IMG/VR virus record: IMGVR_UViG_3300037104_000212 | Location: 1 to 24,370 of that record | DNA length: 24,370 nt | Reading direction: 5' to 3' (one strand) | Source: a virus | In this document: positions 6,305 to 21,287 of the stretch, one piece after another | How the letters are laid out: the number at the start of each line of letters is the position of its first letter | How positions within the stretch are numbered: position 1 is the first letter of the stretch | The notes under the pieces: generated by a model | Told to the model about the DNA's origin: nothing | Databases searched by the model: none | The model's input: only the letters and a program-made list of their open reading frames with translations | Translations under genes and position numbers: made by a program

Positions 6305-6801
6305 AAAAATATCGCCTTGTCTTGAATTGTCGGGATTGTGGCCACCGTTGGAAGAAAACGGTAACGACGCTCGATGTGCCAAACCCTCCGTGTCCAAGGT
6401 GCCGGAAGGAACAAAAATACAGGGGCATGGATTATTCTAGCAACCGCGCGCCCGCTGCCGTTGGCATGAGCAATCAAGTCAAGGCGGTTGACGAAACCGC
6501 TCGCATAACGATGGAGGATTACGGCCTAACGGACTTGCGAACGGATGTGAGACAAGGGGAAACCGCAGCGCCAAAGTTACCTGGAAAACTACAGCACATG
6601 GCCGACACGATGTTTTCCGGCGGCACTAACCGTGGCGGAATGATGCGAGGAATCAATACCGGGCAGTTGGCGCGTCGCGCCATGGGCGGCGCATTTTCTC
6701 CATCCAGAACGCACTCTCCCGATCCTATTTCAGTCATTCAAGGCCCGCGAGAAAAGCCGCCGGTTCGTATTCTAAATACGCCGAGCGAGAGACGCCGGTG
6801 A
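6301..6801 (+). CDS. Zinc-ribbon protein of the packaging operon, 166 aa
   Basis: Translation probably starts at TTG 6301 within a TTGA overlap. The N-terminus has a zinc-ribbon pattern: C-R-D-C-G-H (C10, C13) followed by C-P-R-C (C31, C34). The remaining ~130 residues are low in hydrophobics and rich in Gly, Arg and Met, so they are probably extended or disordered. The role is unknown; nucleic-acid or protein binding is the usual use of such ribbons. The gene ends in a GTGA overlap with the radical SAM gene, which ties the sugar cassette to the terminase operon. Confidence 0.7.
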   Translation: MKKYRLVLNCRDCGHRWKKTVTTLDVPNPPCPRCRKEQKYRGMDYSSNRAPAAVGMSNQVKAVDETARITMEDYGLTDLRTDVRQGETAAPKLPGKLQHMADTMFSGGTNRGGMMRGINTGQLARRAMGGAFSPSRTHSPDPISVIQGPREKPPVRILNTPSERRR

Positions 6802-8261
6802 GCGATCTAGTAATCATCCATCCTGGAGCGTCACAGGAAATCTATCAGGGGCTTTCAAACGAATTTTCAGCGATAGAACAGCCGCTATGGACGCGACTGA
6901 TTGCGGGTTATGTGCGCCAAAACGGCTTTTCAGTCAGCATCATTGATGCTGACGCCGATAGACTATCGCCAGCATTTGCGGCTGAAAGAACGAAAAAAGA
7001 AAGCCCGCGTCTTGTCGCTATCGCGGTGGAAGGGCAGCAGCCATCGGCGAGCTCGCAAAAAATGGTTTGCGCTGGGCAAATCGCGCGGGAAATAAAAAAA
7101 CTATCTCCCGATCAGAGAATAATTATGACGGGGAATCATCCGTCTGCTCTACCAGAGAGAACGCTGCGCGAGGAAGAAATTAATTATGTAGCTGACGGCG
7201 AAGGCGCCCTGACAATCGTAGGTCTGTTACGCGGGACGCCGCTCAATAATATTCCCGGCCTTGTATGGCGCATATCTCCGCATAGCATGATTTGGGCTAA
7301 TGCCGCCGCGCCGCTATTGGATTTAGATAATGATTTGCATGGTGACGCATGGGACTTGTTCCCGATGGATCGCTACCGCTCGCACAACTGGCAACGGCTT
7401 GACGATCAGAAAAAACGCAAGCCATACGCGGCCATCTATACGTCTCTAGGGTGCCCCTACGCCTGTCATTTTTGCATGATAAATGTGTTTCAGCACACGA
7501 ACCGTTACCGAACTAGATCGCCGGAATCCGTTGTCAAAGAAATGGTGATGCTAAACCGTGAATATGGCGTCGAGACGTTCAAATTCACTGACGAGCTTTT
7601 TATTCTGAAAAAAGCCCACTACGAAGCAATTTGTAACGGCATTATTGCCGCAGGGCTGGGAGATAAAATTTCAAGTTGGTGCTATGCCAGAACGGATACG
7701 GTGAATCCTGGCAGCCTCGATCTTTTGAGACGCGCCGGATTTAATTGGTTTGCGCTCGGGATCGAAAGCGGCTCGAAGGTTGTGCGCGATGGCGCGAACA
7801 AGGCACTACGAAACGACGATATAGTTGGCGTCGTGCGCTCAATAGAAAACGCCGGGATAAACGTCATATCTAATTTCATTTTCGGTCTGTCTAACGACAC
7901 TCATGCAACGATGAAGGAAACCCTAGACCTTGCCCTTGAGCTAAATACCGCCTGGGCTAATTTCTATGTCGCTCAAGCCTACCCAGGATCGCCGCTTTAC
8001 GACGAAGCGGTTTCAAAGGGATGGACGCTCCCCGAATCATGGATTGGATATTCTCAGCACTCGTATGAAACACGGTGCTTAGATACGGAACACCTTACAG
8101 CCGCCGAAGTCCTGCAATTCCGCGACGATGCGTTTCAACAGTATTTTACAAATCCAGCCTATCTAGTAATGCTGCGCCACAGGTTCGGATTAGAAATCGT
8201 GCAGCACGTTATGGAAATGACTAGCCACAAGATCAAGCGCAAGCTGCTAGAGGCTGCATGA
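6798..8261 (+). CDS. B12-binding-domain radical SAM protein
   Basis: The 487-residue protein starts at GTG 6798. Residues ~1-145 look like the Rossmann-type B12-binding domain of this superfamily, including 'GYVRQNGF', 'MTGNHPSALPERTL' and 'YVADGEG'. The radical SAM core begins near 210 with the 4Fe-4S motif C219-x3-C223-x2-C226 in 'LGCPYACHFC'. 'ALGIESGS' and 'FIFGLSNDT' are typical later strands. Enzymes of this architecture methylate unactivated carbons or rearrange carbon frameworks; the substrate cannot be read from sequence. Because the next genes are a glycosyltransferase and sugar-nucleotide enzymes, a sugar or glycan substrate is a reasonable inference. The gene is coupled to its neighbours by GTGA and ATGA overlaps. 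Confidence 0.9.
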   Translation: MSDLVIIHPGASQEIYQGLSNEFSAIEQPLWTRLIAGYVRQNGFSVSIIDADADRLSPAFAAERTKKESPRLVAIAVEGQQPSASSQKMVCAGQIAREIKKLSPDQRIIMTGNHPSALPERTLREEEINYVADGEGALTIVGLLRGTPLNNIPGLVWRISPHSMIWANAAAPLLDLDNDLHGDAWDLFPMDRYRSHNWQRLDDQKKRKPYAAIYTSLGCPYACHFCMINVFQHTNRYRTRSPESVVKEMVMLNREYGVETFKFTDELFILKKAHYEAICNGIIAAGLGDKISSWCYARTDTVNPGSLDLLRRAGFNWFALGIESGSKVVRDGANKALRNDDIVGVVRSIENAGINVISNFIFGLSNDTHATMKETLDLALELNTAWANFYVAQAYPGSPLYDEAVSKGWTLPESWIGYSQHSYETRCLDTEHLTAAEVLQFRDDAFQQYFTNPAYLVMLRHRFGLEIVQHVMEMTSHKIKRKLLEAA

Positions 8262-9319
8262 AGATTCTCATTGCCACTACATCGACCGGAGACACAGAAA
8301 ATATCGCTGAAAGTTTGCGGTATATGGAAAAACATACCGTGAGCGTTTTCCATTACGATCAGAAATGGACACAAGAAATCGCAATCCAGGGGCGACGAGA
8401 CCAGCGCATAGCAGCGGCGTCTCCACCTGACCTAACCAATAAAAATGTTGGATGTGATGCGGAATTTATTTCTCATACGAAACAGGTTTCCCCTGACTTA
8501 ATTGTTTATATCAGCGCGTGGGGAGCAACCTTCTCGCCTTCTCGGGAAGCTCTGGCACAGATTCACGACATGGCTCCAATGGTTCATATGATTTTTGACG
8601 GGGCCGATCCGCCATGGTGGGGTCCGCTCGCGGAAATGGAAGCATGGGGCGTGTTCGATCTGACCGTCACGATTGACGGGGCGCATGATTGGCCCGGAGG
8701 AAGGGATTGGAAGGACGCGGCAACCAGCCTAGGTAACGCGCTATCTCTTTTGACGCCGATCAGCCCACAATACTATCCAAAGCAACCGCTAAAATTTGAT
8801 GAGCGCCCGTTCCCCATTGGCTTCGGCGGTAATGTTGGGAGCTACGTTCGCAAGGGCGTTGTTGAGCGATTGCAACAAGAAAACATGCCGTTCATTCTTA
8901 AAATGCGCGATGACGCATCGTATCAGCATTACGCCACATATCTTTCTAACTGCCAAATCATCGTCAATGTTCCGTTCACCGGATCGGGGGAAACCAAGCA
9001 CATTAAGGGCCGCGTAATCGAAACCGCATTGGCCCAAGCATGTTTGCTCGAATGGAATAATCCGCTGTTGCGCGAATGGTTCACAGAGCGCCTAGAGTTT
9101 GAGGAATACGCCAACGCCGGAGACTGCGTTGATATGTGTCGGTTTCTTATCACGAAGCCGAAACGCTGTGAAGAAATTGCAATGGCGCTTTACGAGCGAG
9201 CGAGCAAAGAACATTCTCCCGAATCATTCTGGGGAAAGGTTTTTGATTCTATCAAGTGGAGAAATAAAATCCATGTCTTGCACGATGACGGCTGCTCAAC
9301 TCAAAGCGTTCGAGTCTGA
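8258..9319 (+). CDS. CgeB-like GT-B glycosyltransferase
   Basis: The 353-residue protein has a C-terminal half like the GT-B glycosyltransferases of the CgeB/Glyco_trans_1 group. 'KHIKGRVIETALAQACLLEW' (about 248-267) is the nucleotide-sugar-binding segment, followed by a 'LEFEEYANAGDCVDMCRFLI' region and a helical tail. The N-terminal half holds a Rossmann-like domain with a hydrophobic 'PDLIVYISAWG' strand. It would transfer a sugar from a nucleotide donor to an unknown acceptor in the cytoplasm. It starts in an ATGA overlap with the radical SAM gene, and its 3' end overlaps the E1-alpha-like gene by 47 bases, so the two are tightly coupled. Donor and acceptor are not determinable here. Confidence 0.75.
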   Translation: MKILIATTSTGDTENIAESLRYMEKHTVSVFHYDQKWTQEIAIQGRRDQRIAAASPPDLTNKNVGCDAEFISHTKQVSPDLIVYISAWGATFSPSREALAQIHDMAPMVHMIFDGADPPWWGPLAEMEAWGVFDLTVTIDGAHDWPGGRDWKDAATSLGNALSLLTPISPQYYPKQPLKFDERPFPIGFGGNVGSYVRKGVVERLQQENMPFILKMRDDASYQHYATYLSNCQIIVNVPFTGSGETKHIKGRVIETALAQACLLEWNNPLLREWFTERLEFEEYANAGDCVDMCRFLITKPKRCEEIAMALYERASKEHSPESFWGKVFDSIKWRNKIHVLHDDGCSTQSVRV

Positions 9320-9866
9320 CATTGCCGAATCATTCAACCGTGGCGAGATACGAGCGCCGATCCACCTTTATGGTGGCAACGAACGTGAGATGATCGAAGC
9401 GTTCTCGGAGGTGGGCCCCAATGATTGGGCATGTTGTTCTTGGCGCAGTCATTACCAGTGTTTGTTAAAGGGTGTTCCGTCAGAAATATTGCGTGCTGAA
9501 ATTCTCGCGGGAAGATCAATATCCCTTTCGTTTCCTGAATATCGCATTGTCTCATCGGCTATCGTCGGCGGCATATTGCCAATAGCCCTGGGCATCGCGT
9601 GGCAGATTAAGCGAACTGGCGGTAAGGAGCGCGTTCATTGCTGGCTTGGCGATATGACCGCCGAAACAGGCATAGCCTATGAGTGCCTGAAATACGGGAT
9701 AGGGCACAACCTTCCGATACGGTGGATTCTTGAGGACAACGGAAAATCCGTAATGACGGATACCGCCGAAGTTTGGAAATTTCTGCGCGGCCCGTCGTTT
9801 TTCAAGGGCTACAAATACGATCTTCCTTGGCCTCACGCTGGCGCAGGACAACGCGTGCAGTTTTGA
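9273..9866 (+). CDS. Thiamine-diphosphate E1 alpha-like subunit, short
   Basis: The start chosen is ATG 9273, with GGAG 11 bases upstream; a longer reading would overlap the glycosyltransferase too far. The 197-residue product resembles the alpha subunit of 2-oxoacid dehydrogenase E1 components: 'ACCSWRSHYQCLLKG' (53-67), 'AIVGGILPIALG' (96-107) and the ThDP/Mg motif beginning 'GDMTAETG' (126-133) and ending in 'LEDNG' (153-157). Ordinary E1 alpha chains are over 300 residues, so this is a minimal version that keeps the cofactor-binding core. The next gene, overlapping by TTGA, encodes the matching beta-like half. Comparable stand-alone E1 pairs attach two-carbon branches to sugars in some antibiotic pathways (avilamycin AviB1/AviB2). 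That role here is inference. Confidence 0.85.
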   Translation: MSCTMTAAQLKAFESDIAESFNRGEIRAPIHLYGGNEREMIEAFSEVGPNDWACCSWRSHYQCLLKGVPSEILRAEILAGRSISLSFPEYRIVSSAIVGGILPIALGIAWQIKRTGGKERVHCWLGDMTAETGIAYECLKYGIGHNLPIRWILEDNGKSVMTDTAEVWKFLRGPSFFKGYKYDLPWPHAGAGQRVQF

Positions 9867-10387
9867 GCGAATATTCCGACGAACTAACGCGCGCGATGAC
9901 GCTGCTGGGCGAGAGAGAAAATTCTGTCTTTCTCGGTCAAGCGGTCGCTTGCCCAGGAACCAGCATGACAGGGACGCTCAAGGGGGTTCCACGCGAGAAA
10001 TTGATTGAGCTACCCGTAGCGGAAGAAATGCAGATGGGAATGTCTATTGGAATCTCTTTGTCAGGCGGTCTGCCAATCTCGATCTATCCGAGATGGAATT
10101 TTCTTTTGCTTGCGACCAATCAAATTGTAAATCACTTGGACAAGCTCTCGCTTTACTCGGGCTATCGCCCGCGCGTCATTATCAGAACCGCGATTGCAAC
10201 CCCTGAGCCGCTTGATCCGGGGCCGCAGCATCTAGGAGATTTTGGGAAAGCCTTTCGGGCGATGCTGAAAACCGTTGAAGTGAGAGAATTGCGGTACGTT
10301 GAGGAAATTGTGCCAGCGTATATGCGAGCGGCAGACGCCGATCATTCGACCATCCTGGTTGAGGAAACGGCCCTCTATGCCCCCTAA
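9863..10387 (+). CDS. Thiamine-diphosphate E1 beta-like (pyrimidine-domain) subunit, short
   Basis: Translation most likely starts at TTG 9863 in a TTGA overlap, giving 174 residues. Motifs match the pyrimidine-binding domain of E1 beta chains: 'FLGQAVACPGTSMTGTL' (23-39), 'IELPVAEEMQMGMSIG' (48-63, with the Glu that activates the cofactor), 'YPRWNFLLLATNQIVNHLDK' and 'PLDPGPQHLGDF'. Ordinary E1 beta chains have a further C-terminal domain that is missing here; the gene stops after the core. Together with the preceding alpha-like chain it should form an (alpha-beta)2 carboligase or decarboxylase. No lipoyl transferase (E2) or E3 gene is nearby, which argues against an oxidative dehydrogenase complex. 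Confidence 0.85.
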   Translation: MSEYSDELTRAMTLLGERENSVFLGQAVACPGTSMTGTLKGVPREKLIELPVAEEMQMGMSIGISLSGGLPISIYPRWNFLLLATNQIVNHLDKLSLYSGYRPRVIIRTAIATPEPLDPGPQHLGDFGKAFRAMLKTVEVRELRYVEEIVPAYMRAADADHSTILVEETALYAP

Positions 10388-11543
10388 TTACTGGTTTCCG
10401 ACCGCCTTTAGCGCCTGGGATGACCAAGAAAGGGCTGCTATGGCCCGAGTTGTCGCCTCTGGGCGGTTCACCGCAGGGGATGAAGTCAGGGCCTTTGAGG
10501 GCGAGTTTGCTGCCATCCACGACATGCGTTACGGGGTGATGGTCAATAGCGGAAGCTCGGCCAATTTGCTGGCTATCGCGGCACTGTTTCACGTGAAACG
10601 GAATCCTCTAAAGCGCGGCGATAGGGTCATAGTCCCGGCAATGGCTTGGGCGACCACCTATGCCCCGCTAGTCCAATATGGCCTCGATCTGGTGCTGGTG
10701 GATTGTGACGACACCTGGAACATGAGACCTGATTTCTCGGCAGAAGTTAAAGCCAACCCACCATACACTTTCAGCCCTCGCCTGATCGTTGGGTGTTCAA
10801 TTTTGGGAAACCCAGGATATTTGTCCGATTGGAGAATGATGGCTGCTGGTGGAAATTCGTATCTCATCGAAGATAATTGCGAATCCATCGGCGCAGCGAT
10901 AGACGGGCAATTCTGCGGAACCTTCGGCGATATGAATACATTTTCTTTTTTCTATTCTCACCAACTATCCGCCATCGAAGGCGGAATGATACTAACCAAC
11001 CATGAAGAATACGCCCGTCTCTGCCGAATGTTGCGCGATCATGGTATGACGCGCTCGGTTGATAAAATTTCTCGGTTTGAGGATGAATACGATTTCAGAT
11101 TGATGGGCTATAACTTACGCCCTCTGGAAATGCACGCGGCGGTAGCCAGAGAACAACTGAAAAAACTTCCAACACTTATCAAGGCGAGAAAGGAAAATCT
11201 TTCGTATTTCATCGGACGCTGCCAAGAATTTGAAATTCCAGTCACGTTTCAAAAACAAATCGGAAGCCAAAGTCCATTCGGTATCGCCTTCGCCTGTGAA
11301 AACACAGAAGAAAGATCAAATCTCGTTGCCGCTCTACGGTCGAATGGGATTGATTGTCGCCTGACTTGTGGCGGTTCTTTCAGAAAACACGAATACGGAA
11401 AACAATGGTCAAACCAGAAAACCCCAGTCGCTGACCGCATCCACGACACAGCCTTGTTCATTGGTTGCCCGCCGTATTCTGCGAACGAACAGATCGACCG
11501 GATAATTTTGGTGATGAAGGGCGCTCTGTGTCGCGCGCATTGA
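10377..11543 (+). CDS. ColD-like PLP-dependent 4-keto-6-deoxy-sugar 3-dehydratase
   Basis: The ATG at 10377 has GAGGAA ten bases upstream; the product is 388 residues, the length I recall for ColD. It belongs to the DegT/DnrJ/EryC1/StrS fold: 'VMVNSGSSANLLAIAALF' (55-72), 'DRVIVPAMAWATT' and 'YLIEDNCES' (162-170). In the motif that normally holds the PLP lysine it reads 'FSFFYSHQLSAIEGG', so His195 replaces Lys. The same replacement is the hallmark of GDP-4-keto-6-deoxymannose 3-dehydratase (ColD) and of RfbH/E1-type dehydrases, which remove the C3 hydroxyl. The rest of the sequence also follows ColD closely, including 'YNLRPLEMHAAVAREQLKKL'. The predicted reaction yields a 4-keto-3,6-dideoxy nucleotide sugar. 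It overlaps the E1 beta-like gene by 11 bases and the SDR gene by 16. Confidence 0.88.
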   Translation: MPPNYWFPTAFSAWDDQERAAMARVVASGRFTAGDEVRAFEGEFAAIHDMRYGVMVNSGSSANLLAIAALFHVKRNPLKRGDRVIVPAMAWATTYAPLVQYGLDLVLVDCDDTWNMRPDFSAEVKANPPYTFSPRLIVGCSILGNPGYLSDWRMMAAGGNSYLIEDNCESIGAAIDGQFCGTFGDMNTFSFFYSHQLSAIEGGMILTNHEEYARLCRMLRDHGMTRSVDKISRFEDEYDFRLMGYNLRPLEMHAAVAREQLKKLPTLIKARKENLSYFIGRCQEFEIPVTFQKQIGSQSPFGIAFACENTEERSNLVAALRSNGIDCRLTCGGSFRKHEYGKQWSNQKTPVADRIHDTALFIGCPPYSANEQIDRIILVMKGALCRAH

Positions 11544-13567
11544 TAACTGGCATCACAGGATTCGTCGGCTCCCACCTAGCCGAATATCTGATCGAGCATA
11601 CCGACTGGGAAATTGTTGGCATGTGCCGCTGGCGCTCTCCGCTCGACAATCTTGAAAATCTATCTGACAGGATAAATCGAAAAGACAGGGTGAGATTGGT
11701 TTACGGAGATTTAAGAGACGCAATCTCAATTCAGGAAGTTGTGAGCCAAGCCGACCCGGATTATGTTTTTCATTTAGCGGCACAGAGCTTCCCTAAAACG
11801 AGTTTCGACAGCCCACTAGACACGCTGGATACAAACATCCAGGGAACAGTAAGATTGCTTGATGCGCTGCGCCACGAAAGGCCGGATGCCATCATTCACG
11901 TTTGTTCATCGTCGGAAGTGTTTGGCCGCGTCCCGAAAGACAAAGTACCGATCAACGAGGAATGTTCATTCCATCCAGCATCACCCTACGCCATATCGAA
12001 AGTAGGAACCGATCTTGTCGGGCGGTTCTACGCCGAAGCCTATGCAATAAATGTTCAGACGACTAGAATGTTTACGCACAGTGTAAGTCGATGGACTCCA
12101 ATTATTTTTAGGGATTCCATTAGTGGTCTAATGGATATTAAATATATCTCTGAATTTAGGCAGGCTGGAAAGCGAGGCGGGTATTTCTCCGGAAAATTCT
12201 TAGATGACGGAACGCAGATTTGGGATTTCACTAGATCATCCCTAGAGATATGGAATTGCGACGGTTGGACACCAATTAAACATCTCTCGTGTCATCCCAT
12301 CGGGGGTCATAAACTTCTTGAAATATCCACTCGATCAGGATTTGTCGATGTTACTGACAACCATTCAATAATTTCTTCCGATGGTGCTTCTGTAGAAGCG
12401 TGGAAACTTTCTAAGGGCGATAAGTTAAAAACTACGTTTTTACCTTATGCTGACGCCACAGACATATCGGATGAGTTGGCGTGGTTTTATGGGTTTTTTG
12501 TAGCGGAGGGCTGCGTTACTAACGGGAAAATTCGAGTAGATAATAAAAAAATTGAACTTATTAAAAGATCAAAAAACGCACTGCTGCGATACATGGGGGC
12601 GGATTCATACGAAGTGTTTTCTGACGATGGCATGATAAGGCTAATCGTAAGGAAACCGGATAAGTTCACTCATCATTTTGTTGATTGTTATGCAAAGGAC
12701 AGAAACAAGCGCATACCAAAACTCATATTAAATGCCTCTTTACACGTTAAAATGGCATTTCTGAGGGGGTACAATGCTGGTGACGGTCGGACAACTCACC
12801 CAAAACTTAGAAGCGAATTTATTGATTTCAAAACAAAATCTCCCATTCTTGCAATGGGGCTTTATGTTCTTGTCCAAGAAGTCCTGCGGGTTGAGTGTAG
12901 AGTCTATATAGAACATAGAGGCGAAGCTCGATATTTTGCTGTGCGTCCTCTGAATCAGACGAAAAGCAAAAGAGGGCAACACCGAATCAAACCAAGTAAC
13001 GAAGTGGTCTCAATCTTAGAGCAGCCCTATGAAGGAGAGGTTTGGGATTTTGAGACCGGAGATCACCAGTTCCATGCTGGGGTAGGAAACCTTATCGTCC
13101 ATAACACGGGGCCACGCCGTGGCGATGTTTTCGCGGAATCGTCGTTCGCCAAACAGATAGCAATGATCGAGGCCGGACTGTTACCGCCAGCCGTGAAAGT
13201 CGGAAATCTTAACTCCCTTCGCACAGTCGCAGACGTTCGGGACGCCGTGCGAGCCTATCATATGCTGTTGACGGTCAACCCAGTTCCCGGCGCTTACTAC
13301 AACATCGGCGGCGAGAAAACTTTGACCGTGGGAGAAATTCTCGAATTTCTCTTGAGCCTTTCTCCGAAGAAAAACGAAATATCGGTAGAACTAGACTCCG
13401 ATAGAGTACGTCCCATAGACGCTGATCTACAAATCCCCGACACAAGAAAATTCTTCAATCATACTGGTTGGAAAACTGAAATCTCGTTTGAGAAAACCAT
13501 GCAAGACCTGATGGATTATTGGCGCCATAAGGTAGCCATCGAAGGAAAGAGGTTGTTACAGAGATGA
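11528..13567 (+). CDS. Intein-containing SDR nucleotide-sugar 4,6-dehydratase/epimerase (GMD/RMD-like)
   Basis: GTG 11528, with GAAGGG upstream, starts directly before the Rossmann motif G8-x2-G11-x2-G14; the in-frame region further upstream overlaps the previous gene and has no family match. The extein matches extended SDR sugar-nucleotide enzymes of the GDP-mannose 4,6-dehydratase / GDP-6-deoxymannose reductase group: 'FHLAAQSFPKTSF', catalytic Ser/Glu in 'CSSSEVFG' (E130), and Y154-x3-K158. Residues 185-526 are an intein, inserted between His184 and the Thr of 'TGPRRG'. The spliced protein would be 337 residues, normal for the family. GMD would supply the substrate for the ColD-like enzyme encoded just before it; a reductase or epimerase role is the alternative. 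Ends in an ATGA overlap. Confidence 0.88.
   Translation: MSRALITGITGFVGSHLAEYLIEHTDWEIVGMCRWRSPLDNLENLSDRINRKDRVRLVYGDLRDAISIQEVVSQADPDYVFHLAAQSFPKTSFDSPLDTLDTNIQGTVRLLDALRHERPDAIIHVCSSSEVFGRVPKDKVPINEECSFHPASPYAISKVGTDLVGRFYAEAYAINVQTTRMFTHSVSRWTPIIFRDSISGLMDIKYISEFRQAGKRGGYFSGKFLDDGTQIWDFTRSSLEIWNCDGWTPIKHLSCHPIGGHKLLEISTRSGFVDVTDNHSIISSDGASVEAWKLSKGDKLKTTFLPYADATDISDELAWFYGFFVAEGCVTNGKIRVDNKKIELIKRSKNALLRYMGADSYEVFSDDGMIRLIVRKPDKFTHHFVDCYAKDRNKRIPKLILNASLHVKMAFLRGYNAGDGRTTHPKLRSEFIDFKTKSPILAMGLYVLVQEVLRVECRVYIEHRGEARYFAVRPLNQTKSKRGQHRIKPSNEVVSILEQPYEGEVWDFETGDHQFHAGVGNLIVHNTGPRRGDVFAESSFAKQIAMIEAGLLPPAVKVGNLNSLRTVADVRDAVRAYHMLLTVNPVPGAYYNIGGEKTLTVGEILEFLLSLSPKKNEISVELDSDRVRPIDADLQIPDTRKFFNHTGWKTEISFEKTMQDLMDYWRHKVAIEGKRLLQR
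12080..13105 (+). mobile_element. Full-length intein with LAGLIDADG endonuclease, 342 aa
   Basis: The inserted segment starts with Ser1 ('SVSRWTPI', block A), has block B 'VTDNHSII' (T92, H95), a first DOD motif 'LAWFYGFFVAEG' (133-144), a second DOD motif 'FLRGYNAGDG' (227-236), block F 'VWDFETGDHQFHAGVGNLI' and ends with His341-Asn342 followed by extein Thr+1. All splicing residues needed for a class 1 intein are present, with Ser as the N-terminal nucleophile and Thr as the C-terminal one. Both endonuclease acidic residues (E143, D235) remain. The DNA is visibly richer in A/T than the flanking extein, consistent with independent origin. It sits in the conserved TGPR region of the host enzyme. 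Confidence 0.93.
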
Positions 13568-13989
13568 GCGTATCGAGGAAATATCTTCCGACACTTTCGG
13601 ATTTGGTTGATCGGCTAACAATCGTTCAACTGAAATCTGTTTTCATCCCCGAACACCGCAAGGAATATCTAGCCGAACGAAAACTTATCGAGCATGACAT
13701 TGACTCGATAATCAAAGGCGGAAAACTTCGCCTTGGCGCGCCGGCCATTCACGCGATCATCGTCATAATGCTGTGCAACCGCTTCATTTGGGAAAATGAA
13801 TCAAAGGCGCGGGCTGGCGGTTCGGAGCAGGATAAGCTGCTAAAACTTACACATTCAATTAACGGCGTGAGGAACTCTGCCAAGAACGCGCTTGCCGCTA
13901 TTGCTGGCGGGCGAAAGGATTATAAAATCGACGCGTTGGCGGCGGACCTTCCAGAAGAATTTGGGAATTGGCGAGTGTTCGACCAGTAA
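13564..13989 (+). CDS. Small helical protein at the end of the sugar cassette, 141 aa
   Basis: The gene starts in an ATGA overlap with the SDR gene and has GAAGGA upstream. The N-terminus 'LPTLSDLVDRLTIVQLK' recalls the short D-(R/K)-(L/I)-(T/S)-I-x2-(L/I)-K motif found in small uncharacterised proteins near glycosyltransferase genes (DUF6165-like); this is a weak resemblance. The rest is predicted helical with a hydrophobic stretch 'AIHAIIVIMLCNRFIW' near residues 60-75. Function unknown; a helper of glycan transfer is only suggested by context. Its stop codon abuts the stop of the convergent portal gene with no spare bases. Confidence 0.7.
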   Translation: MSVSRKYLPTLSDLVDRLTIVQLKSVFIPEHRKEYLAERKLIEHDIDSIIKGGKLRLGAPAIHAIIVIMLCNRFIWENESKARAGGSEQDKLLKLTHSINGVRNSAKNALAAIAGGRKDYKIDALAADLPEEFGNWRVFDQ

Positions 13990-15771
13990 CTATTTCTTCT
14001 TTCCGCCATGGTGTGGAAGCGCAGCCTCTGGATGCTGGGCGATAAATTCCGCTTGCTGAATCTTTCGAGTCTGTAATCCGCTGAGAATTTCGTTCTCCCC
14101 GGCCGGGTGGGTATGGGTGATAACATCTTCTGGAGATGCCGCACCAAGTTTTGCCAAATCGAACAATAGAGCGCGAGATTGCTGATTAAATGCCGGAGAC
14201 GCCGAGTGAGAATCGACAACTACCTTGGCGTTCTTTGGCATGTCGGCATAGGTAAATTCGACGGCCTTCATTCCTGGGGCCGGTGGCTGTTCCACATCCT
14301 GATCGGGTTGAACCAAGGATTCCACATTCGTTTCATTAGGCAAAACCCAAGCAGTTATTTTAGACGGAACATGTGCCTTGCACATATCCAGGGCGAGGCC
14401 GAAGGCTTCCTCAACGCTACGTTCTACCAATAGAGCGCGATCCATAAAGCGCGGGCTGGCATTTTGCGTCAGGGTAGCGGCATGTCCTTGGGAGCGAACC
14501 CCAGCTTCACCGCGACCGCGCATAACGGGAGGCATCCCCGCCATTTCATTAAACATCGCCTCGGTTTCGTGGATTCTTTCGTAAAGCCCCTGCGGTATTT
14601 CAGGCGCAAGTGTCTGAATTTTTGCGGTTGGAGATGAATCCGAAAGGAACCCGCCCGGCTTGTTTAGTTTTGCGTAGGCGTTCTGATTGACGCTTGTCGA
14701 TCCTGTGAAGGCGCGCGGCGGCTTCTCCTGTAGGCGCAAAAGTAGATTGATGCCGTCGATGCTGACATTAAGCGTTTTTTGCAGAAGCGCGACGTTGCAC
14801 AGTTCTGATCGTCCCCAAAAATATCCATCAAGACGGTTAGGACAAAATTCTATGAAAGGGTGATGGCCCTTCAGAGGGTTGTCTGTGTGGTCTAGGGACA
14901 AGTCCGTGTCGATTGCATCAGCAAAAATGTTTCGATGCTGAATATTTCCCTCGATTACGATATCTCCCACGGTCTGAATCGTTACCCAATCCTTTTGCTC
15001 GCTGTCCCAAGCCCAAAGCTCATCCAGGCGTAGAATCTTTGCCAGAACTTCTGGGCTTAGATTGGGGCTTGGCCCGCTCAGCCAATCAACAATGCCTCGG
15101 CTTTTTGTTGGAGGGCCTCCAGCCGTTTGATATGGATACATTCCGCCAACAATAATTTGACGAAGCACGTCTGAATTTTGGTCATCTCCTGTCCTAGTTG
15201 GGGAAAGGTACTTACGAACCTTTTTCAGCAATTCTGCCTTGTTTGATTTATTCTCAATCAAATCCTCGAACTGATAAATCGTCATGTATGTGCTATGAAC
15301 GAAGGCTGGTTGTCTGTCTAAGTCGGCAACCGATTCGTTCATAACGCCAAACATTTCCGGCTGGACTAGGTATGGATCAAACCCACCATCCGCCCAATTC
15401 AGTTTTAGGAGCGCCTTTCCTTTGACGAGGGACCAAGTGACAACATCCTCAATCTTGGTATCGACGCTGGAATGTCTTAGGAGGCGGTGAAGGTCTGATG
15501 CTATGGCGCGCCCCTTGGCGCGATCCACTGGGCCGACCTGTCCGTGAAATTCAACATCCGGTCTAAGTTCAACCGGGCTGTAAAGAAGTGAGCTTATGCC
15601 GTCGATATACGCGAATGATTTTGGGTATATCTGAGGATTGCCATCCTCGTCGCCGGTCAAATAAAGATTTCGGTACATCGCACCGCGCTGAATGCGCTCG
15701 GTGCGGGAGGAAAGGCAATAGCCGATGATTTCGGCGGCCCACTTTCCTATATTCTTCTTAGGAATTTTCAT
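13990..15771 (-). CDS. Portal protein
   Basis: The 593-residue protein reads like podovirus-type portal proteins, which form the dodecameric DNA channel at the capsid vertex and dock the terminase. Supporting segments are 'KSFAYIDGISSLLYSP' near the N-terminus, 'WSLVKGKALLKLNW' (wing region), 'HHPFIEFCPNRLDGYFWGRS' and 'LQKTLNVSIDGINLLLRLQE' (clip/stem region), and 'PPVMRGRGEAGVRSQGHAA'. The C-terminus is basic. It lies on the minus strand while terminase and capsid lie on the plus strand, an unusual arrangement. Its start overlaps the stop of the AlpA-like gene by four bases (ATGA), so both are read from the divergent control region. The P22 portal is longer (about 725), so the barrel may be reduced. 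Confidence 0.85.
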   Translation of the reverse strand: MKIPKKNIGKWAAEIIGYCLSSRTERIQRGAMYRNLYLTGDEDGNPQIYPKSFAYIDGISSLLYSPVELRPDVEFHGQVGPVDRAKGRAIASDLHRLLRHSSVDTKIEDVVTWSLVKGKALLKLNWADGGFDPYLVQPEMFGVMNESVADLDRQPAFVHSTYMTIYQFEDLIENKSNKAELLKKVRKYLSPTRTGDDQNSDVLRQIIVGGMYPYQTAGGPPTKSRGIVDWLSGPSPNLSPEVLAKILRLDELWAWDSEQKDWVTIQTVGDIVIEGNIQHRNIFADAIDTDLSLDHTDNPLKGHHPFIEFCPNRLDGYFWGRSELCNVALLQKTLNVSIDGINLLLRLQEKPPRAFTGSTSVNQNAYAKLNKPGGFLSDSSPTAKIQTLAPEIPQGLYERIHETEAMFNEMAGMPPVMRGRGEAGVRSQGHAATLTQNASPRFMDRALLVERSVEEAFGLALDMCKAHVPSKITAWVLPNETNVESLVQPDQDVEQPPAPGMKAVEFTYADMPKNAKVVVDSHSASPAFNQQSRALLFDLAKLGAASPEDVITHTHPAGENEILSGLQTRKIQQAEFIAQHPEAALPHHGGKKK

Positions 15772-15968
15772 GCCGTCATTCTAATCTGATTTCGGCGAGA
15801 TTCCATCCAGCGTTCAACATCGTTTTTACGGTAGAGAATGTTTCTACCAACCCTGAAAAAATCCGGCCCCGTTCCAATCTCGCTTCTTCGCTGGTAAAGC
15901 CACCACTCTGATACGCCGATAATCGCTGCGGCTTCCTTTGTACTAAGATGCTCGCGGTCATTCGCCAT
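15768..15968 (-). CDS. AlpA/excisionase-type helix-turn-helix protein
   Basis: The 66-residue product fits the MerR-like winged HTH of AlpA/excisionase proteins: 'LSTKEAAAIIGVSEWWLYQRR' region (8-28), then a wing with 'FFRVGRNILYRKNDVERWM' (37-55). Proteins of this type regulate phage genes or bend DNA for excision. No integrase gene is visible, so regulation is the likelier role. It is the first gene of a two-gene minus-strand operon with the portal gene, and the upstream region contains several dyads to which it could bind. ATG 15968 has a GGAG-like sequence about a dozen bases upstream. Confidence 0.82.
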   Translation of the reverse strand: MANDREHLSTKEAAAIIGVSEWWLYQRRSEIGTGPDFFRVGRNILYRKNDVERWMESRRNQIRMTA

Positions 15969-16159
15969 TGATTGTCAAGTCTCCAATCAGAACTCTATGG
16001 AACCATACATACCACTAAAGGAACTCGCGTCCAATACCGTTCTAGACCTTGTGTCAAGGGCGATGAAAAAGCAAAGTCAGTATGGTCGCAATATTGCACC
16101 TACCAGTCGTCAGGTAATTGGTTTGAGACCCTGACGGCCTAGAACAGGAGACTCGCCAA
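15969..16159. promoter_or_regulatory. Divergent control region between portal operon and head genes
   Basis: This 191-base region holds no ORF of note but has three dyads: CCTTG-TGT-CAAGG (16047-16059), the perfect palindrome GCAATATTGC (16088-16097), and a 7-base inverted repeat CGTCAGG/CCTGACG (16108-16114 and 16130-16136) with a 15-base loop. On the minus strand the first dyad contains TTGACA (complement of 16052-16057), a possible -35 element for the portal operon, though no good -10 follows at 16-18 bases. No convincing plus-strand promoter was found. A 12-base sequence, CAGGTAATTGGT (16111-16122), recurs with one mismatch at 16195-16206. The dyads are candidate binding sites for the AlpA-like protein. 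Confidence 0.5.
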
Positions 16160-16201
16160 ATGGCTAAAGGTCGTCACAAGCGCCGGCACAAGCGCAAGTA
16201 A
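16160..16201 (+). CDS. 13-residue very basic mini-ORF (leader peptide or micropeptide)
   Basis: AGGAG (16146-16150) stands nine bases before ATG 16160; the ORF reads MAKGRHKRRHKRK and stops at TAA 16199-16201. Ten of 13 residues are Lys, Arg or His. The ribosome binding site is one of the best in the window. The ORF is first in the head-gene transcript and is followed three bases later by competing hairpins, an arrangement seen in attenuation leader peptides. It could equally be a real DNA- or RNA-binding micropeptide. No family can be named for so short a sequence. Confidence 0.5.
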   Translation: MAKGRHKRRHKRK

Positions 16202-16203
16202 TT

Positions 16204-16240
16204 GGTAGGGCGGCGCGCTCTACCCTGGGCAGCGCCGCCC
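16204..16240 (+). promoter_or_regulatory. Two mutually exclusive GC-rich hairpins (attenuator-like)
   Basis: Hairpin A pairs 16204-16212 with 16216-16224 (nine pairs, one G-U, three-base loop). Hairpin B pairs GGGCGGCGC (16208-16216) perfectly with GCGCCGCCC (16232-16240) across a 15-base loop. They share bases 16208-16216, so only one can form. A pyrimidine-rich tract with scattered Ts follows but there is no clean T-run, so intrinsic termination is uncertain. Position just after the mini-ORF stop codon suggests translation of the mini-ORF could choose between them. Confidence 0.5.
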
Positions 16241-16271
16241 GCCTCTCTCTCAATTTCATTTATTGGATTTC

Positions 16272-16664
16272 ATGCCTCTACCCGGTCAACCACCCTCTCC
16301 AGCCCTTGCCTCCGCTCCGCCGAATGTCGGCGGCGCTGTTGCACCGCAGGGCAACGCCGGGAACGCGATGGCAGGACTGGAAAAGGTCAAGATCGCGGTA
16401 AAGGCGCTGCAAGATGCGCTCCCGTCCATCCCAATGGGTAGCTCGCTGCATACCAAAGTCCTGAACGCCGCGAAAGATTTATCCAAGGAACTAGGCGCCG
16501 GTTCTGAGCAGGGTGGTGGCCCGCCGATCCAGGCGCTTTTGCAGATGATCCAGCAAGCCAAAGCCAACCAGCCGAACGCCGCTCTCGCTCGTATGGGCGG
16601 TCCGCCTCCAGGTGGTGGCGCTCCCGCCATGCCGATGATGCCGCCCGCTGCGGCAGCCGCCTAA
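16272..16664 (+). CDS. Pro/Gly/Ala-rich head-operon protein, 130 aa
   Basis: ATG 16272 is chosen over an in-frame TTG at 16263; neither has a clear ribosome binding site. The termini are low complexity: Pro-rich at the start, and Gly-Pro then Met-Pro-Ala at the end. In between is a helical core at about 34-105 with 'LEKVKIAVKALQDAL' and 'IQALLQMIQQAKANQ'. It is the first sizeable gene of the capsid operon, a place where podoviruses often carry small head-assembly or scaffold-accessory proteins. No definite family is recognised. Confidence 0.7.
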   Translation: MPLPGQPPSPALASAPPNVGGAVAPQGNAGNAMAGLEKVKIAVKALQDALPSIPMGSSLHTKVLNAAKDLSKELGAGSEQGGGPPIQALLQMIQQAKANQPNAALARMGGPPPGGGAPAMPMMPPAAAAA

Positions 16665-16679
16665 TCGATAGGAGAATCC

Positions 16680-16871
16680 ATGCCGCTCAATAAAACCAAC
16701 CCTTCGTTCCCAGCGCCATATGTAAACGACACGAAAGATACCGATCCGATGATCGTCAAGGTGGACGTGAACAAGACGGAAATTGGCGCACGTTCATCTG
16801 GTATGCCGAAGGATGCAAAAAACTCCAACACCCTGGAACACGTCGATAACCGCAAGACTGGGGGCAAATAG
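16680..16871 (+). CDS. Hypothetical protein, 63 aa
   Basis: A strong AGGAGA lies upstream of ATG 16680. The protein is hydrophilic, rich in Asn, Lys, Thr and Asp, and probably unstructured alone. It sits between two head-assembly genes. A second small protein of similar length and composition is encoded after the gp10-like gene (23578-23775); both end in a Gly-Lys or Gly-Gly tail. No function can be assigned. Confidence 0.7.
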   Translation: MPLNKTNPSFPAPYVNDTKDTDPMIVKVDVNKTEIGARSSGMPKDAKNSNTLEHVDNRKTGGK

Positions 16872-16873
16872 CC

Positions 16874-17455
16874 ATGCCGATGGTCGAAATCGACGAGGAA
16901 CAGCTTGCGCTTTTGCGGCGAGCCGATGCCTTTCTTGGGAAGGCGTTGAATGATGGTGACATTGGGCCTGCCTTGCAGCGCAAGGCGAAGGCCGATTTCC
17001 CGAACGCGCGGTTTGCAGCCGACGTTGCAGATCCTTTCATTAAGCCAATTCACGATGAGCTTAAGGCCGAAAAGGAAGCTCGTACCAAGCTCCAGGATCG
17101 CCTTGACGCCCGAGACAAATCCGAGAAAGACGCTAAAGAAACATCGGAATTGAACGCTTCTCTCGAATCCGCGCGGAAGCGTTATCGCCTGACCGATGAA
17201 GGCATGGACAAGGTTATGAAGCGTATGCGGGACATGAATAACCCGGACGCCGAAGCCGCCGCCGCATGGGTTACTGACAATGAACCGGCACCAAAGACAA
17301 CCCCAGCTTCGTCCTATTCGCCTCAGGCGCTGAATCTTTTTGGCGCTGGCGAAAAGAGCGAGGACGAGAAAATTCAACTTCTTCACCGCGATCCGCTGAA
17401 ATTCTTTGACCGTGAGGTTGCGGATATTTTGGCGGAAGGCAATCAGGCCGCTTAA
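16874..17455 (+). CDS. Putative scaffold protein
   Basis: The 193-residue protein is charged and mostly helical, with a heptad-like coiled-coil region at about 58-100 ('DELKAEKEARTKLQDRLDAR'), an Ala/Glu-rich middle and a C-terminal helix containing 'DPLKFFDREVADIL'. Size, composition and position immediately before the major capsid gene are those of phage internal scaffolding proteins, which line the procapsid and leave on maturation. Sequence alone gives no catalytic motif, so a protease role is unlikely. Assignment rests mainly on synteny and helical character. Confidence 0.7.
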   Translation: MPMVEIDEEQLALLRRADAFLGKALNDGDIGPALQRKAKADFPNARFAADVADPFIKPIHDELKAEKEARTKLQDRLDARDKSEKDAKETSELNASLESARKRYRLTDEGMDKVMKRMRDMNNPDAEAAAAWVTDNEPAPKTTPASSYSPQALNLFGAGEKSEDEKIQLLHRDPLKFFDREVADILAEGNQAA

Positions 17456-17466
17456 GGAGCTAGTCA

Positions 17467-18531
17467 ATGGCACTTCCGACCACGTTCCAGGGGCCAGTCG
17501 CCAGCGGCATAACGCCGGGCGGGTCTATCGGCGCCCAACTTTCTGCCATAACGCGCCGCGCTTTCATTCCATCTTTGTTTGTCCAAATCTATCAGGCGCA
17601 TCCGTTACTAAGCTTGCTGTTGCAGAACGCGCAGAAGGCGCGCGGCGGCGTTTCGCAGATAACCATCCCGACGCAGGGCGCTAGCTTTGTTAATTTCTCG
17701 TGGGGTTCTTTCGCTGGCGACTTCCCAATCCCGGAAGATCAGGCCGCGATTGAAAACGCACAGTTCAACCTCAAGCTCGGCATGGTGCCGATTGGCTTCT
17801 TCGGGATGGAAGCGATTATCCAATCGTCGGAAGTCATCATTCCGAAACTCCGGGCCGTCATGTCTGACGCCGCCACGGTTATCAAGCAGGCCATTGCCCA
17901 ATCTCTCTATGCGAACAACTACTCCAACACGTCAGCCATAGATTCTCTCGCTCAGGCTTACGATAACGGAACGCTCGCGCCGACCTACGGCGGCATAGCT
18001 CGCGCCGGAAATCAATTCTGGTGGGGACAGTATCTGCCAAACTCCGGCGGTATCTCAAATCGCACAGGAATGGCGATCACGCTGACTCGCGTTATGACAG
18101 GCGCCGGCGGTGAAGCGGCTGACTTCGCTGTGATGAATCCTGCCGATTGGTCAACGCTCATGGCCGACTTCATGGGCTATGAAATGTACCAGACCCGGCC
18201 CAAGTCGATTTACGGCAAGGATGATGCGGTCAATGCTGGCTTCCGTGCCATCCAGGTTCTCGACACTCCGATCTTCCCCGATCCGTTCTGCCCGCGCGGC
18301 GAAATGTACGCGATTAACTCGCGTTACCTCGCCATGTACCTATCGGAGTTTGCGCCGTTCATCTTCTCTGGCTTTGAATCGCTCATCCCGCAGGGCCAGA
18401 TTGCCGATATTGGCGTTCTAATCACTGCCCTAGACCTCGTTTGCGCGAAGCCGTCAAGCGGCGCGCATCTTACTGGATTGACCGGGGCCGCGTGGCCCAA
18501 CTCGCCGGGTAGTGTCCCGGCGGTAATCTAA
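17467..18531 (+). CDS. Major capsid protein
   Basis: The 354-residue protein has a classic AAGGAG ribosome binding site, as expected for a highly expressed gene. It has the look of HK97-fold coat proteins of short-tailed phages: an N-terminal arm 'RRAFIPSLFVQIYQAHPLLSLLLQ', 'QITIPTQGASFVNFSW', a spine-helix region 'PKLRAVMSDAATVIKQAIAQSLYAN' split by strands, an A-domain-like stretch with 'FAVMNPADWSTLM', and 'GEMYAINSRYLAMYLSE' near the C-terminus. It follows the scaffold-like gene and precedes the gp4/gp10-like tail genes. There is no protease domain or obvious cleavage site. Confidence 0.85.
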   Translation: MALPTTFQGPVASGITPGGSIGAQLSAITRRAFIPSLFVQIYQAHPLLSLLLQNAQKARGGVSQITIPTQGASFVNFSWGSFAGDFPIPEDQAAIENAQFNLKLGMVPIGFFGMEAIIQSSEVIIPKLRAVMSDAATVIKQAIAQSLYANNYSNTSAIDSLAQAYDNGTLAPTYGGIARAGNQFWWGQYLPNSGGISNRTGMAITLTRVMTGAGGEAADFAVMNPADWSTLMADFMGYEMYQTRPKSIYGKDDAVNAGFRAIQVLDTPIFPDPFCPRGEMYAINSRYLAMYLSEFAPFIFSGFESLIPQGQIADIGVLITALDLVCAKPSSGAHLTGLTGAAWPNSPGSVPAVI

Positions 18532-18560: not shown

Positions 18561-19658
18561 ATGCCTATCGTTTTTGGAGCCCCTGGCGTAGTCCCGAGCA
18601 ATCGCGGGCAGCCTTCCAATGTCATCACGCTTCAAGCGGGTAACGTCCAGCTTGTGCCATCCGGCTCTTGGTATGTGCGTCCGGGCCGCTACACTACGCT
18701 ACAGGAATACGATCCTGTGGCTGGGTTCTGGCGCAGCATCGGCGGCGACTGGCCCGCGGCTTCCATGTCTCTCGTTTGGTCCGATGGCGTCAACGTCCGC
18801 ATCGCCAATCAAACTGGCTGCGTGGTCGGCGCTCTCATCACCAATGCCGGGACGGGCTATACCTCGGACCCGACCGTTACGCCTTCGGCCGGCGCTTCGG
18901 TTTGGCAGTCAGTAACTGGCGGTGCCGTCAGCACGGTTGTCACCGTCACGAACGGTGGCACGAACTACGTCTATCCGCCCATCGTCACTTTCACCACTCC
19001 GAACGCCGCTGGCGGCACGGGGACGGCTCTCGGCATCCAAGCGACAGGCTTTGCCACGATCAGCGGTGGTGCCGTTACGGCCATCACCGTTACGGATCAG
19101 GGCGCTGGATATCCGGCTGTTCCGACGATTTCTCTCATCAACGATCCGAGAGATTCTACTGGCGGCAATGCCTCGGCTGTTGCAACCCTAACGGGGACTA
19201 ATACCGTTACCGCCCTGATTGTTACCGATCACGGCAATCCGCTCACGGCGGTTCCGACGCTCTCGATCACGGGAGGCGGTGGTGCTAGCGCAGCGGCAAC
19301 CGCCATCATGTGCTGGGCGCTCACTGGCGTCACGGCGACTACCACGGGTTCCGGTTATTCCGGCAATTACGGCGCGGTAGAGCTTTCGGCGCTTGGCGGC
19401 TTCCCGTCCGGCACTCCGGCTTATACAAACCCGACCGATCAACTGAATCTCGTCCGTCCGCGCAAGGCGTCCATCCTTGCGTCTATCACTGCTGGCGCTA
19501 TCAGCAATTCCGGTCAGACGGTTCTCGACGGCGGCATCTATGCGGGTAACGCTTCTATCATCGTTTACTCGCCCGGCGATGCTGCGCTCGATCCGGCTAC
19601 CGGACTCACTGGGTCGTTCGGCGGCGTGACAGACGTGGTCCTGTTGTTCGCGATCTAA
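18561..19658 (+). CDS. Virion protein with GxGY beta repeats (decoration or head fibre candidate)
   Basis: The 365-residue protein has AGGAG ten bases upstream. After an ~85-residue non-repetitive start it has about five copies of a Gly/Thr/Val-rich unit resembling 'VTNGGTxYxxxPTV' (residues ~89-276), which should form stacked beta strands, then a unique C-terminal part ending 'FGGVTDVVLLFAI'. The place right after the major capsid gene suggests a capsid decoration, cement or head-fibre protein. The same repeat type appears in the gp10-like protein. The stop codon overlaps the stop of the opposite-strand endonuclease gene by bases 19655-19658. Confidence 0.7.
   Translation: MPIVFGAPGVVPSNRGQPSNVITLQAGNVQLVPSGSWYVRPGRYTTLQEYDPVAGFWRSIGGDWPAASMSLVWSDGVNVRIANQTGCVVGALITNAGTGYTSDPTVTPSAGASVWQSVTGGAVSTVVTVTNGGTNYVYPPIVTFTTPNAAGGTGTALGIQATGFATISGGAVTAITVTDQGAGYPAVPTISLINDPRDSTGGNASAVATLTGTNTVTALIVTDHGNPLTAVPTLSITGGGGASAAATAIMCWALTGVTATTTGSGYSGNYGAVELSALGGFPSGTPAYTNPTDQLNLVRPRKASILASITAGAISNSGQTVLDGGIYAGNASIIVYSPGDAALDPATGLTGSFGGVTDVVLLFAI
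18829..19390 (+). repeat. GxGY-type protein repeats, about five units
   Basis: Degenerate coding repeats with the consensus T-V-T-x-x-G-x-G-Y-x-x-x-P-x-(V/I) alternate with Gly/Ala-rich spacers. Boundaries are approximate. Related units are present at 21795-22490 in another virion gene. Confidence 0.7.
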
Positions 19659-20482
19659 CCAATGGGGAGGCTCGGCGTGTGTTCAAGAACTTGCCGGGCC
19701 TTCTCAGCCTTTCTATCGAGCGAAACAGTAGCGTTCTCATAGAGAACTCTGATTACAGAGATTGCGCGGTGTCCCGCCGTTTGGGCGCGGTAAACGCCTT
19801 TGTCTCTTATAATGTTTGGCGAAAATCCAATACAATGTTGGATAAAATTACTGAACTGGGAAACCAAGTCATAGCTTCCGGTAAGGGAGATTCGTGGGTA
19901 TATGCCCACGGCATCAATGCAGCCGTCTCCATCAATAACGCCACGCCAGAAATCTCGGTTAATTTCAAGGCCAATTACTTTGGCAGTTTTGCTTTTGTTT
20001 GGAACAACGCCATATTTTGCAAGGTCAGAAACCATTTTTATGGAATAAACTCCCACTCCGATCTGTGGCCTAGAGATGTATTTCCCAACAAGAACTCTCG
20101 GGGCTGCGTAAATCATTTTCAGTCCAGAGGACAAAAATTTCTTGAATTTCTGCATATGCTCAGAGTCTTTATCGGACAGCATTATAGAAACTCTTTTGCC
20201 CCAAATGGCTCCGTCGGCCATCATAAATCCAATCCAATAGGCACTTTCTGGAGTGATGAATGCAAATGCGTCATCATTAAGTGGAAGTCGTTTTTGTCCG
20301 CGTGTTTTTACACCGCGCCGTTTTGCCATGTTGCAGATTGCGGGGTGCCCTACGCCGAATTGGTCAATCAAAATCTTTGTATTTTCTCCAGCAACATACC
20401 GGCGCAACAATTCGTCTCTTTGCTGCGGGGTAAGTTTAAGACCGTTTCTCGGCCCAATCTTTCGGTCGGAGTCTAGTGTCAT
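19655..20482 (-). CDS. Free-standing LAGLIDADG homing endonuclease with N-terminal HTH
   Basis: From ATG 20482 (an in-frame GTG lies two codons upstream) the product is 275 residues. Residues 17-60 form a helix-turn-helix ('LTPQQRDELLRRYVAGENT' then 'FGVGHPAICNMAKRRGV') likely to help bind DNA. Two LAGLIDADG motifs follow: 'AYWIGFMMADG' (D90) and 'DFWRGVIDGDG' (D186), both with intact acidic residues, so a single-chain active nuclease is expected. The gene runs opposite to its neighbours and fills the gap between two virion genes, sharing four bases with one and two with the other. Such genes spread by cutting phages that lack them. Composition is more A/T-rich than the neighbours. Confidence 0.88.
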   Translation of the reverse strand: MTLDSDRKIGPRNGLKLTPQQRDELLRRYVAGENTKILIDQFGVGHPAICNMAKRRGVKTRGQKRLPLNDDAFAFITPESAYWIGFMMADGAIWGKRVSIMLSDKDSEHMQKFKKFLSSGLKMIYAAPRVLVGKYISRPQIGVGVYSIKMVSDLAKYGVVPNKSKTAKVIGLEINRDFWRGVIDGDGCIDAVGIYPRISLTGSYDLVSQFSNFIQHCIGFSPNIIRDKGVYRAQTAGHRAISVIRVLYENATVSLDRKAEKARQVLEHTPSLPIG

Positions 20483-21287
20483 GGCCACGTTGGGATGGTA
20501 TTTAACTGATACGGCGTCACTCTTGAGGGACGCCCAGTTTCAATTTACCACAAAAACACAGCTTACTAGATGGATAAATTCCGGTCGCAATCAGGTTGCT
20601 AAACTAACCGGCTGCCTCCGTGTTCTCGTTCCTGGTCAGGCGCCATTCGGCGGCGTGGGGCAAGCTGGCTCGATCATTCCTGGCGGCGCGGCGGCAGGAA
20701 CTGAATTAGGCCCAGCCTCGACCGATACGACCGTCCTTCCCTCCGCGATACCGACAAATAGTTTTCTGACAATCCCAGGCGTGGAAAAATATTCCTATGC
20801 CATGGCGAACCAGTACGTCAGGCGGTTCAACGCCGGTCTAAAGGGGATAATGGATGTAATTGATTTGTCGGTGGCGTGGGGCGGAATACGCCCGACGCTG
20901 GCATGGTGGCCCTGGGAGGATTTGCAGGCTTACGGGAGAAGCTACAATACCGGCGTTACCTCATATCCATTCTTTTGGAGCGTAATGAATGACGGAGTGA
21001 ACGGCCAAGTATGGCTGTTCCCGACGCCAAGTGCAGTTGGAGAAATGGAATGGGATTGCACTTGCCTGCCGCTTGATTTGAATAGCGATGGCGATTACGA
21101 CGCCATACCGGAAAATTTCGCTGGGGCAGTAAAATTCTATGCGGCTGGACTTTCCTATCTAGGCTCTCAGCGCACCGGACAGGCTGCCCTCATGGGTCAA
21201 CTATTCCTAGACCATCTTGGAATTGACAGGGCCGCGAGTGATAGAGGAAAAACGCCTGACTTCTATTTCGGGTCCGGTATTCCATAA
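20481..21287 (+). CDS. Head-completion/adaptor protein (P22 gp4-like position)
   Basis: ATG 20481 has GGAG ten bases upstream; a longer in-frame reading would lie wholly over the endonuclease gene and is rejected. The 268-residue protein begins with 'LLRDAQFQFTTKTQLTRWINSGRNQVAKLTG', a helical pattern common in phage head-tail adaptors (D-x-x-x-x-R-W-x-x-x-x-L-x-x-W-I-N). Later segments are beta-rich with 'VWLFPTPSAVGEMEWDC' and end with helices carrying 'AVKFYAAGLSYLGSQ'. Position before the gp10-like gene matches the P22 order gp4-gp10. It would bind the portal and receive the tail hub. Start and ATG are shared with the start of the opposite-strand endonuclease gene. Confidence 0.72.
   Translation: MATLGWYLTDTASLLRDAQFQFTTKTQLTRWINSGRNQVAKLTGCLRVLVPGQAPFGGVGQAGSIIPGGAAAGTELGPASTDTTVLPSAIPTNSFLTIPGVEKYSYAMANQYVRRFNAGLKGIMDVIDLSVAWGGIRPTLAWWPWEDLQAYGRSYNTGVTSYPFFWSVMNDGVNGQVWLFPTPSAVGEMEWDCTCLPLDLNSDGDYDAIPENFAGAVKFYAAGLSYLGSQRTGQAALMGQLFLDHLGIDRAASDRGKTPDFYFGSGIP

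Follow-up and report, generated by a model that had tools for sequence, protein, structure and literature searches.

Microviruses (phiX174 and the gokushoviruses) encode among their head genes a tiny, highly basic protein, J/VP8, about 24-40 aa in length, with a strongly basic and nearly acid-free composition. VP8/J sits inside the capsid (PMC11945456). The adenovirus core peptide mu (protein X) is 19 aa long and arginine-rich, condenses dsDNA and is present at about 100-300 copies per virion (PMC7998265). The arginine-rich motifs of lambda N and P22 N are short, rich in Arg and Lys, and bind nucleic acid; the full lambda N protein is longer and acts in antitermination, with boxB as its target. 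The trp, his, erm and tna leader peptides are encoded at operon heads by mini-ORFs that have a Shine-Dalgarno sequence (SD) before them and a hairpin after them. Large-scale prediction of small phage genes has also been carried out (Fremin, Bhatt and Kyrpides 2022, as cited in PMC11323111).

The basic mini-ORF that we describe here is, like those predicted small genes as PMC11323111 refers to them, an unannotated phage microgene. Its peptides share with J/VP8 their tiny size, their highly basic, nearly acid-free composition and their place among head genes, a likeness for which we claim no sequence relationship; J/VP8, however, belongs to ssDNA non-tailed phages, whereas the micropeptide is 9-18 aa long and belongs to tailed phages. 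Adenovirus mu differs in being cut from a longer precursor, whereas here the mini-ORF itself is the gene, and the virus is unrelated. The peptide has the Arg/Lys-rich, nucleic-acid-binding composition of the lambda N and P22 N motifs, and the order of elements (SD-led mini-ORF, then hairpin, at an operon head) is that of the leader peptides; unlike in the trp, his, erm and tna leaders, the alternative stem is unconserved, the codons are abundant ones, and placement relative to the putative promoter and operon varies by clade.

The window, by which we mean the whole stretch analysed (24,370 bases, an IMG/VR virus record), carries an ATG-to-TAA ORF of 13 residues, MAKGRHKRRHKRK, at 16160..16201 (+), with the SD AGGAG (16146..16150, +) 9 nt 5' of the ATG. 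The preliminary description had reported a basic 13-residue ORF with a strong ribosome binding site, placed before the capsid operon, and both points hold: translation of 16160-16201 gives K, R or H at 10 of the 13 positions, and the major capsid protein (MCP) gene downstream (17467..18531, +) matches the major head protein family phrog_9953 (E = 8e-19). When both strands of the window were searched, 16160-16201 was the only SD-led basic mini-ORF found, the background density of such ORFs being about 0.007-0.009 per kb. A 56-aa TTG ORF (15972-16142, +) overlaps the presumed leader 5' of it. The capsid operon begins with a Pro/Ala/Gly/Met-rich 130-aa gene (16272..16664, +), homologues of which adjoin the mini-ORF in most relatives, and continues with a conserved 63-aa gene (16680..16871, +) and a probable scaffold gene of 193 aa (16874..17455, +; judged from its position and coiled-coil-like sequence) before the MCP. 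The portal gene (13990..15771, -; 28-29% identity to the annotated portal of MW202753/MW202825) lies on the other side of the mini-ORF.

Further upstream, about 7 kb of cargo (6798-13989, +) separates terminase from portal and looks like a sugar-modification cluster, with radical SAM/B12-binding, glycosyltransferase-like, E1 dehydrogenase, transketolase pyrimidine-domain, DegT aminotransferase and GDP-mannose dehydratase ORFs. The GDP-mannose dehydratase-like ORF (11465-13567, +; 700 aa) is interrupted by a LAGLIDADG_3 domain with a weak intein-splicing match, probably an intein within a phage-carried sugar-metabolism gene, and a free-standing LAGLIDADG_3 homing-endonuclease-like ORF (19655-20488, -) lies antisense between structural genes. 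These homing-endonuclease and intein genes have no bearing on the micropeptide finding.

A search with the window's MCP gave 40 related IMG/VR loci; searching with an MCP alignment and with the MW202753 MCP widened the set considerably, to loci whose MCPs are only about 37-40% identical. We refer to loci nearest the window's MCP as the 'w clade' and to those nearest MW202753, a freshwater clade, as the 'm clade'. A mini-ORF was counted if it encoded 9-18 aa with at least 45% K/R/H, had an ATG and an SD, and lay within 1.0-2.3 kb before the MCP gene. Among the 177 loci with enough sequence upstream (5 duplicates were dropped from later counts), 165 had a qualifying mini-ORF beside the portal/capsid genes, one of which (L061) is probably a spurious match. 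Hand inspection found displaced, longer, weak-SD or divergent mini-ORFs in seven more loci (L009, L030, L031, L037, L088, L119 and L124), which brings the total to ~172/177; four or five loci are left without one, so the mini-ORF is not strictly essential across the phage group. Such ORFs occurred at 1.08 per kb in the interval vs 0.005-0.009 per kb elsewhere or on the opposite strand (~150x), and the spacing from SD to ATG, an SD being required for counting, was mostly 5-8 nt. Most m-clade loci (66/89) have two mini-ORFs, and three are apparent in some loci (L231, L240, L262). The host group of the micropeptide is large and made up mostly of uncultured tailed phages; the cultured distant MCP relatives Mx8, Mx9, BUCT555, ppBjS10J-1 and Mwe-JY13, and four other records, lack the mini-ORF. 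Pfam and PHROGs gave no profile match for variants of 21-23 aa, the shorter peptides falling below the tool's length limit, and the open-access literature that we searched, a search that did not extend to the small-gene catalogue of Fremin, Bhatt and Kyrpides 2022, describes no such peptide family.

Portal and a small HTH_17/excisionase-like gene (13990-15968, -) are inverted in the window relative to the terminase and capsid genes. The inverted portal is common to many w-clade relatives, while the gene is on the plus strand in other w-clade loci and in the m clade, and the mini-ORF stays in capsid orientation although portal orientation differs between clades. In the GenBank record MW202753 (L042, 4740-5038), two minus-strand hypothetical CDS are annotated over two plus-strand mini-ORFs and are probably spurious. 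Between the two mini-ORFs of m-clade loci (e.g. L042, 4800-4877) we also observed a recurring GGGUGUGGCU..CCC..GGCCGC, a potential small pseudoknot with no Rfam match.

We also scanned 2.9 million viral contigs blindly, using DNA patterns made up of an SD, an ATG, a run of basic-type codons, CGN/AAR and TAA, and ignoring neighbouring genes; by our estimate fewer than one match would be expected by chance. The scan returned 47 loci (one of them, L005, already known), and in 45 of these the portal and/or capsid genes of the phage group lay beside the match. The exceptions were L217, where the match is inside a long ORF, and L236, with a distant terminase and, immediately 5' of the match, a portal-sized ORF. 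The MCPs of most blind-scan loci were only 36-50% identical to the references, and the phage group is therefore broad. An SD followed by a basic mini-ORF is a nearly diagnostic DNA signature for this group.

Substitutions within the ORF point to purifying selection on the amino acids. Across 60 non-overlapping ORF pairs, 108 single-base codon changes were synonymous and 24 nonsynonymous (82% synonymous, compared with 27% expected from the codons and with 11% and 3% for the same 60 pairs in the other two frames); counting all pairs, which are not independent, gave 87%. The ORFs had been chosen for basicity, a possible bias in this share, but the bias is small because nearly all loci have such an ORF. 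Codon changes from basic to basic outnumbered those from basic to other residues by 1079 to 53 (again among non-independent pairs). The frequency of synonymous changes also implies that the RNA sequence inside the ORF is not tightly constrained. Among 128 distinct peptides, whose sequences are related and so not independent, R stood at position -5 in 111 and at -2 in 104, and K or R at -1 in 125, giving a C-terminal pattern R-x-x-R-[K/R] in what is the most constrained part of the peptide. Family members are about 9-18 aa long, with some variants of 21-23 aa; their net charge runs from +5 to +11 (mean +7.4), and only 7/128 distinct peptides contain D or E. K and R interchange among relatives, such that charge is kept rather than one amino acid. 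The presence of the ORF in nearly all relatives and the selection on its amino acids bear out the alternative raised in the preliminary description, namely that the peptide itself is functional, and we have very little doubt that 16160-16201 is a real, selected micropeptide gene.

Codon use resembles that of the capsid gene. CGT and CGC make up 90% of Arg codons in the m clade and 81% in the w clade; the AAG share of Lys codons in the w clade is 81% in the mini-ORF, compared with 82% in the MCP, 63% in portal and 59% in terminase genes, and TAA ends 74% of w-clade mini-ORFs, the highest share among the genes compared. A strong SD, capsid-like codons and TAA stops suggest the profile of an abundantly made product, which would be the opposite of a hungry-codon leader. 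The earlier suggestion that charged tRNA levels might gate the head genes does not agree with these codons, which are the abundant CGT/CGC and AAG and not rare ones. Hungry-codon attenuation was accordingly rejected, given that the Arg and Lys codons and the TAA stops resemble those of the capsid gene; nor did the mini-ORFs show the codons for one sensed amino acid, often rare or clustered, that mark an attenuator, K and R interchanging and usage being capsid-like.

We reasoned that 16160-16201 would be a stand-alone gene for an ultra-short polycationic peptide, translated efficiently and presumably in the late phase, and that its product may accumulate and work in trans. We consider it probable that the peptide works in trans and not solely as a leader. 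The role that we judge most likely for it is binding of nucleic acid as heads are assembled or DNA is packaged; the peptide may enter or assist the head, where it could neutralise the charge of DNA in the prohead after the manner of microvirus J or adenovirus mu. The flanking hairpins would then most likely be elements of mRNA processing, stability or leaky termination that isolate a highly translated cistron from its neighbours. We put forward the nucleic-acid role itself with some reserve, as a plausible reading to which we give slightly less than an even chance and which draws on composition, expected abundance and location. Several points count against this reading. A Rosetta-stone search among the relatives found no known head protein, and no known DNA-binding protein, with the peptide fused to it; the head proteins of the few loci without the mini-ORF contain no compensating basic stretch. 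Several hundred copies of a 13-aa peptide would neutralise only a small fraction of the DNA charge, conservation anchored at the C-terminus also fits a nascent-chain effect, and the four or five loci without the ORF and its absence from the distant MCP relatives weigh in the same direction.

A different, and in our judgement unlikely, role in trans is that of an RNA-binding regulator, in which the peptide, a bare arginine-rich motif, would bind phage RNA, either at the flanking stem-loops or elsewhere, and act in antitermination, mRNA stability or late-gene translation, as lambda N does at boxB. Arginine-rich motifs match the micropeptide in size and composition, and hairpins lie on both sides of the ORF. 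The upstream stem-loop CGTCAGG/CCTGACG (16108..16136, +), a candidate 5' mRNA hairpin, has a partly conserved loop, UUGGxUUGAGAC, and compensatory changes at 5/8 pairs among 5 relatives in a shallow alignment. Past the stop, stem B (16204..16243, +; core 16208-16243) has a predicted stability of -27 to -32 kcal/mol (-31.8 for the whole), and the 131-nt region is more stably folded than its shuffled versions (z = -3.1). The post-ORF hairpin sequences were too divergent to align and RNAalifold found no common fold, so structure there was assessed by z-scores for each locus: values below -2 over the 50 nt past the stop were found in 64% of 45 non-redundant w-clade loci, compared with 3% of controls, and in 25% of 32 m-clade loci. 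A hairpin is thus frequent at this position in the w clade, but its sequence is unrelated between loci while the peptide is conserved, which speaks against this role, and no boxB- or nut-like element was recognised and no Rfam match obtained for the window and 12 loci. In L033, L044, L220 and L225 the hairpins end in U-runs and resemble intrinsic terminators; those of other loci do not, and the window has no canonical U-tract.

Binding to a host or assembly partner, such as the ribosome, the polymerase or an acidic scaffold or minor head protein, in place of packaged DNA, seems rather improbable. The choice between Arg and Lys is kept at fixed C-terminal positions, suggesting a specific partner, and the mini-ORF keeps its nearness to portal, the 130-aa gene and the scaffold gene. 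Host takeover is less easily squared with a gene that sits among head genes and uses capsid-like codons, however, and no partner was found to compensate in loci that lack the peptide.

We regard as improbable a leader or arrest peptide, whose translation, perhaps with a slowdown at the C-terminal basic-x-basic motif of the polybasic ORF, would control the adjacent hairpin and thereby how the capsid operon is transcribed or translated. The residues at the C-terminus are the most constrained, and the hairpin lies a few nt from the stop in many w-clade loci; in the window two bases separate the end of the stop (16201) from the start of the hairpin (16204). The preliminary description had noted two stems sharing sequence just past the stop, and stem A (16204..16224, +; 9 bp, loop of 3, -12.9 kcal/mol) and stem B indeed use one 5' arm. 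Stem B is far more stable, so competition between them would be only transient, during transcription. Stem A is specific to the window and its near-identical copy L001; the relatives closest among those that differ (L002 and L003, whose MCPs are ~93% identical) lack it, as do nearly all the others examined. Of the conservation that the preliminary description had called for, that of the peptide was found and that of the competing pairing was not, and the attenuation by competing stems that it proposed is not upheld. Strong post-ORF structure is also missing from L221, L237, L239, L242, L253 and L259, all of which keep the ORF, and the charge kept with K/R interchange, the abundant codons and the TAA stops likewise speak against a leader.

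Putative promoters and neighbouring genes bear on the same question. In the w clade, TTGACA lies 5' of the mini-ORF in 50/77 loci and was absent throughout from the 160 nt past it, a placement consistent with leader ORF and capsid operon sharing one transcript; the w-clade ORF sits in the putative capsid-operon leader, and the window leaves little room for a later promoter. In the m clade, TTGACA is found past the last mini-ORF and before the capsid operon in 71/83 loci, which would argue against a leader there. The -10 elements are weak, so these promoters are only suggested. In some m-clade loci (e.g. L186, L192, L201) the TTGACA past the last mini-ORF is sometimes followed by a palindrome, GTTTGTAA..TTACAAAC, possibly a regulated capsid-operon promoter. 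Other genes come between mini-ORF and capsid operon in L227, L256, L260 and L261 (~1.7 kb), and about 1.4-1.8 kb separates the two in L234 and L238. Across the group, peptide and SD are constant, as is a position close to the portal/capsid genes, while hairpin, promoter and flanking genes vary, which makes the peptide the functional unit and disfavours a universal attenuator; a leader role limited to the window's own clade is possible.

Finally, functionlessness is usual for very short ORFs, but a chance or artefactual ORF is contradicted here by prevalence (165/177 loci), density, the in-frame substitution pattern (82% synonymous) and the blind scan (45/47 matches in one neighbourhood), and is highly improbable.

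The outcome is a defined, testable micropeptide family. Nearly all examined members of a divergent phage group keep the mini-ORF with MCP-like codon use, and annotation pipelines miss it; genes of 10-14 codons fall under gene-finder cut-offs. It is conceivable, and we suggest it tentatively, that free-standing polycations of 9-18 residues, with two or three encoded in some genomes, serve as stoichiometric assembly or packaging components in a large group of tailed phages; if so, they would be among the shortest conserved structural-type genes known. To our knowledge, a protamine-like device of this kind has not been described for tailed phages. Metal ions and polyamines are the usual explanation for packaging charge in dsDNA tailed phages; if the peptide enters the head, these phages would also be able to use encoded polycations for packaging.
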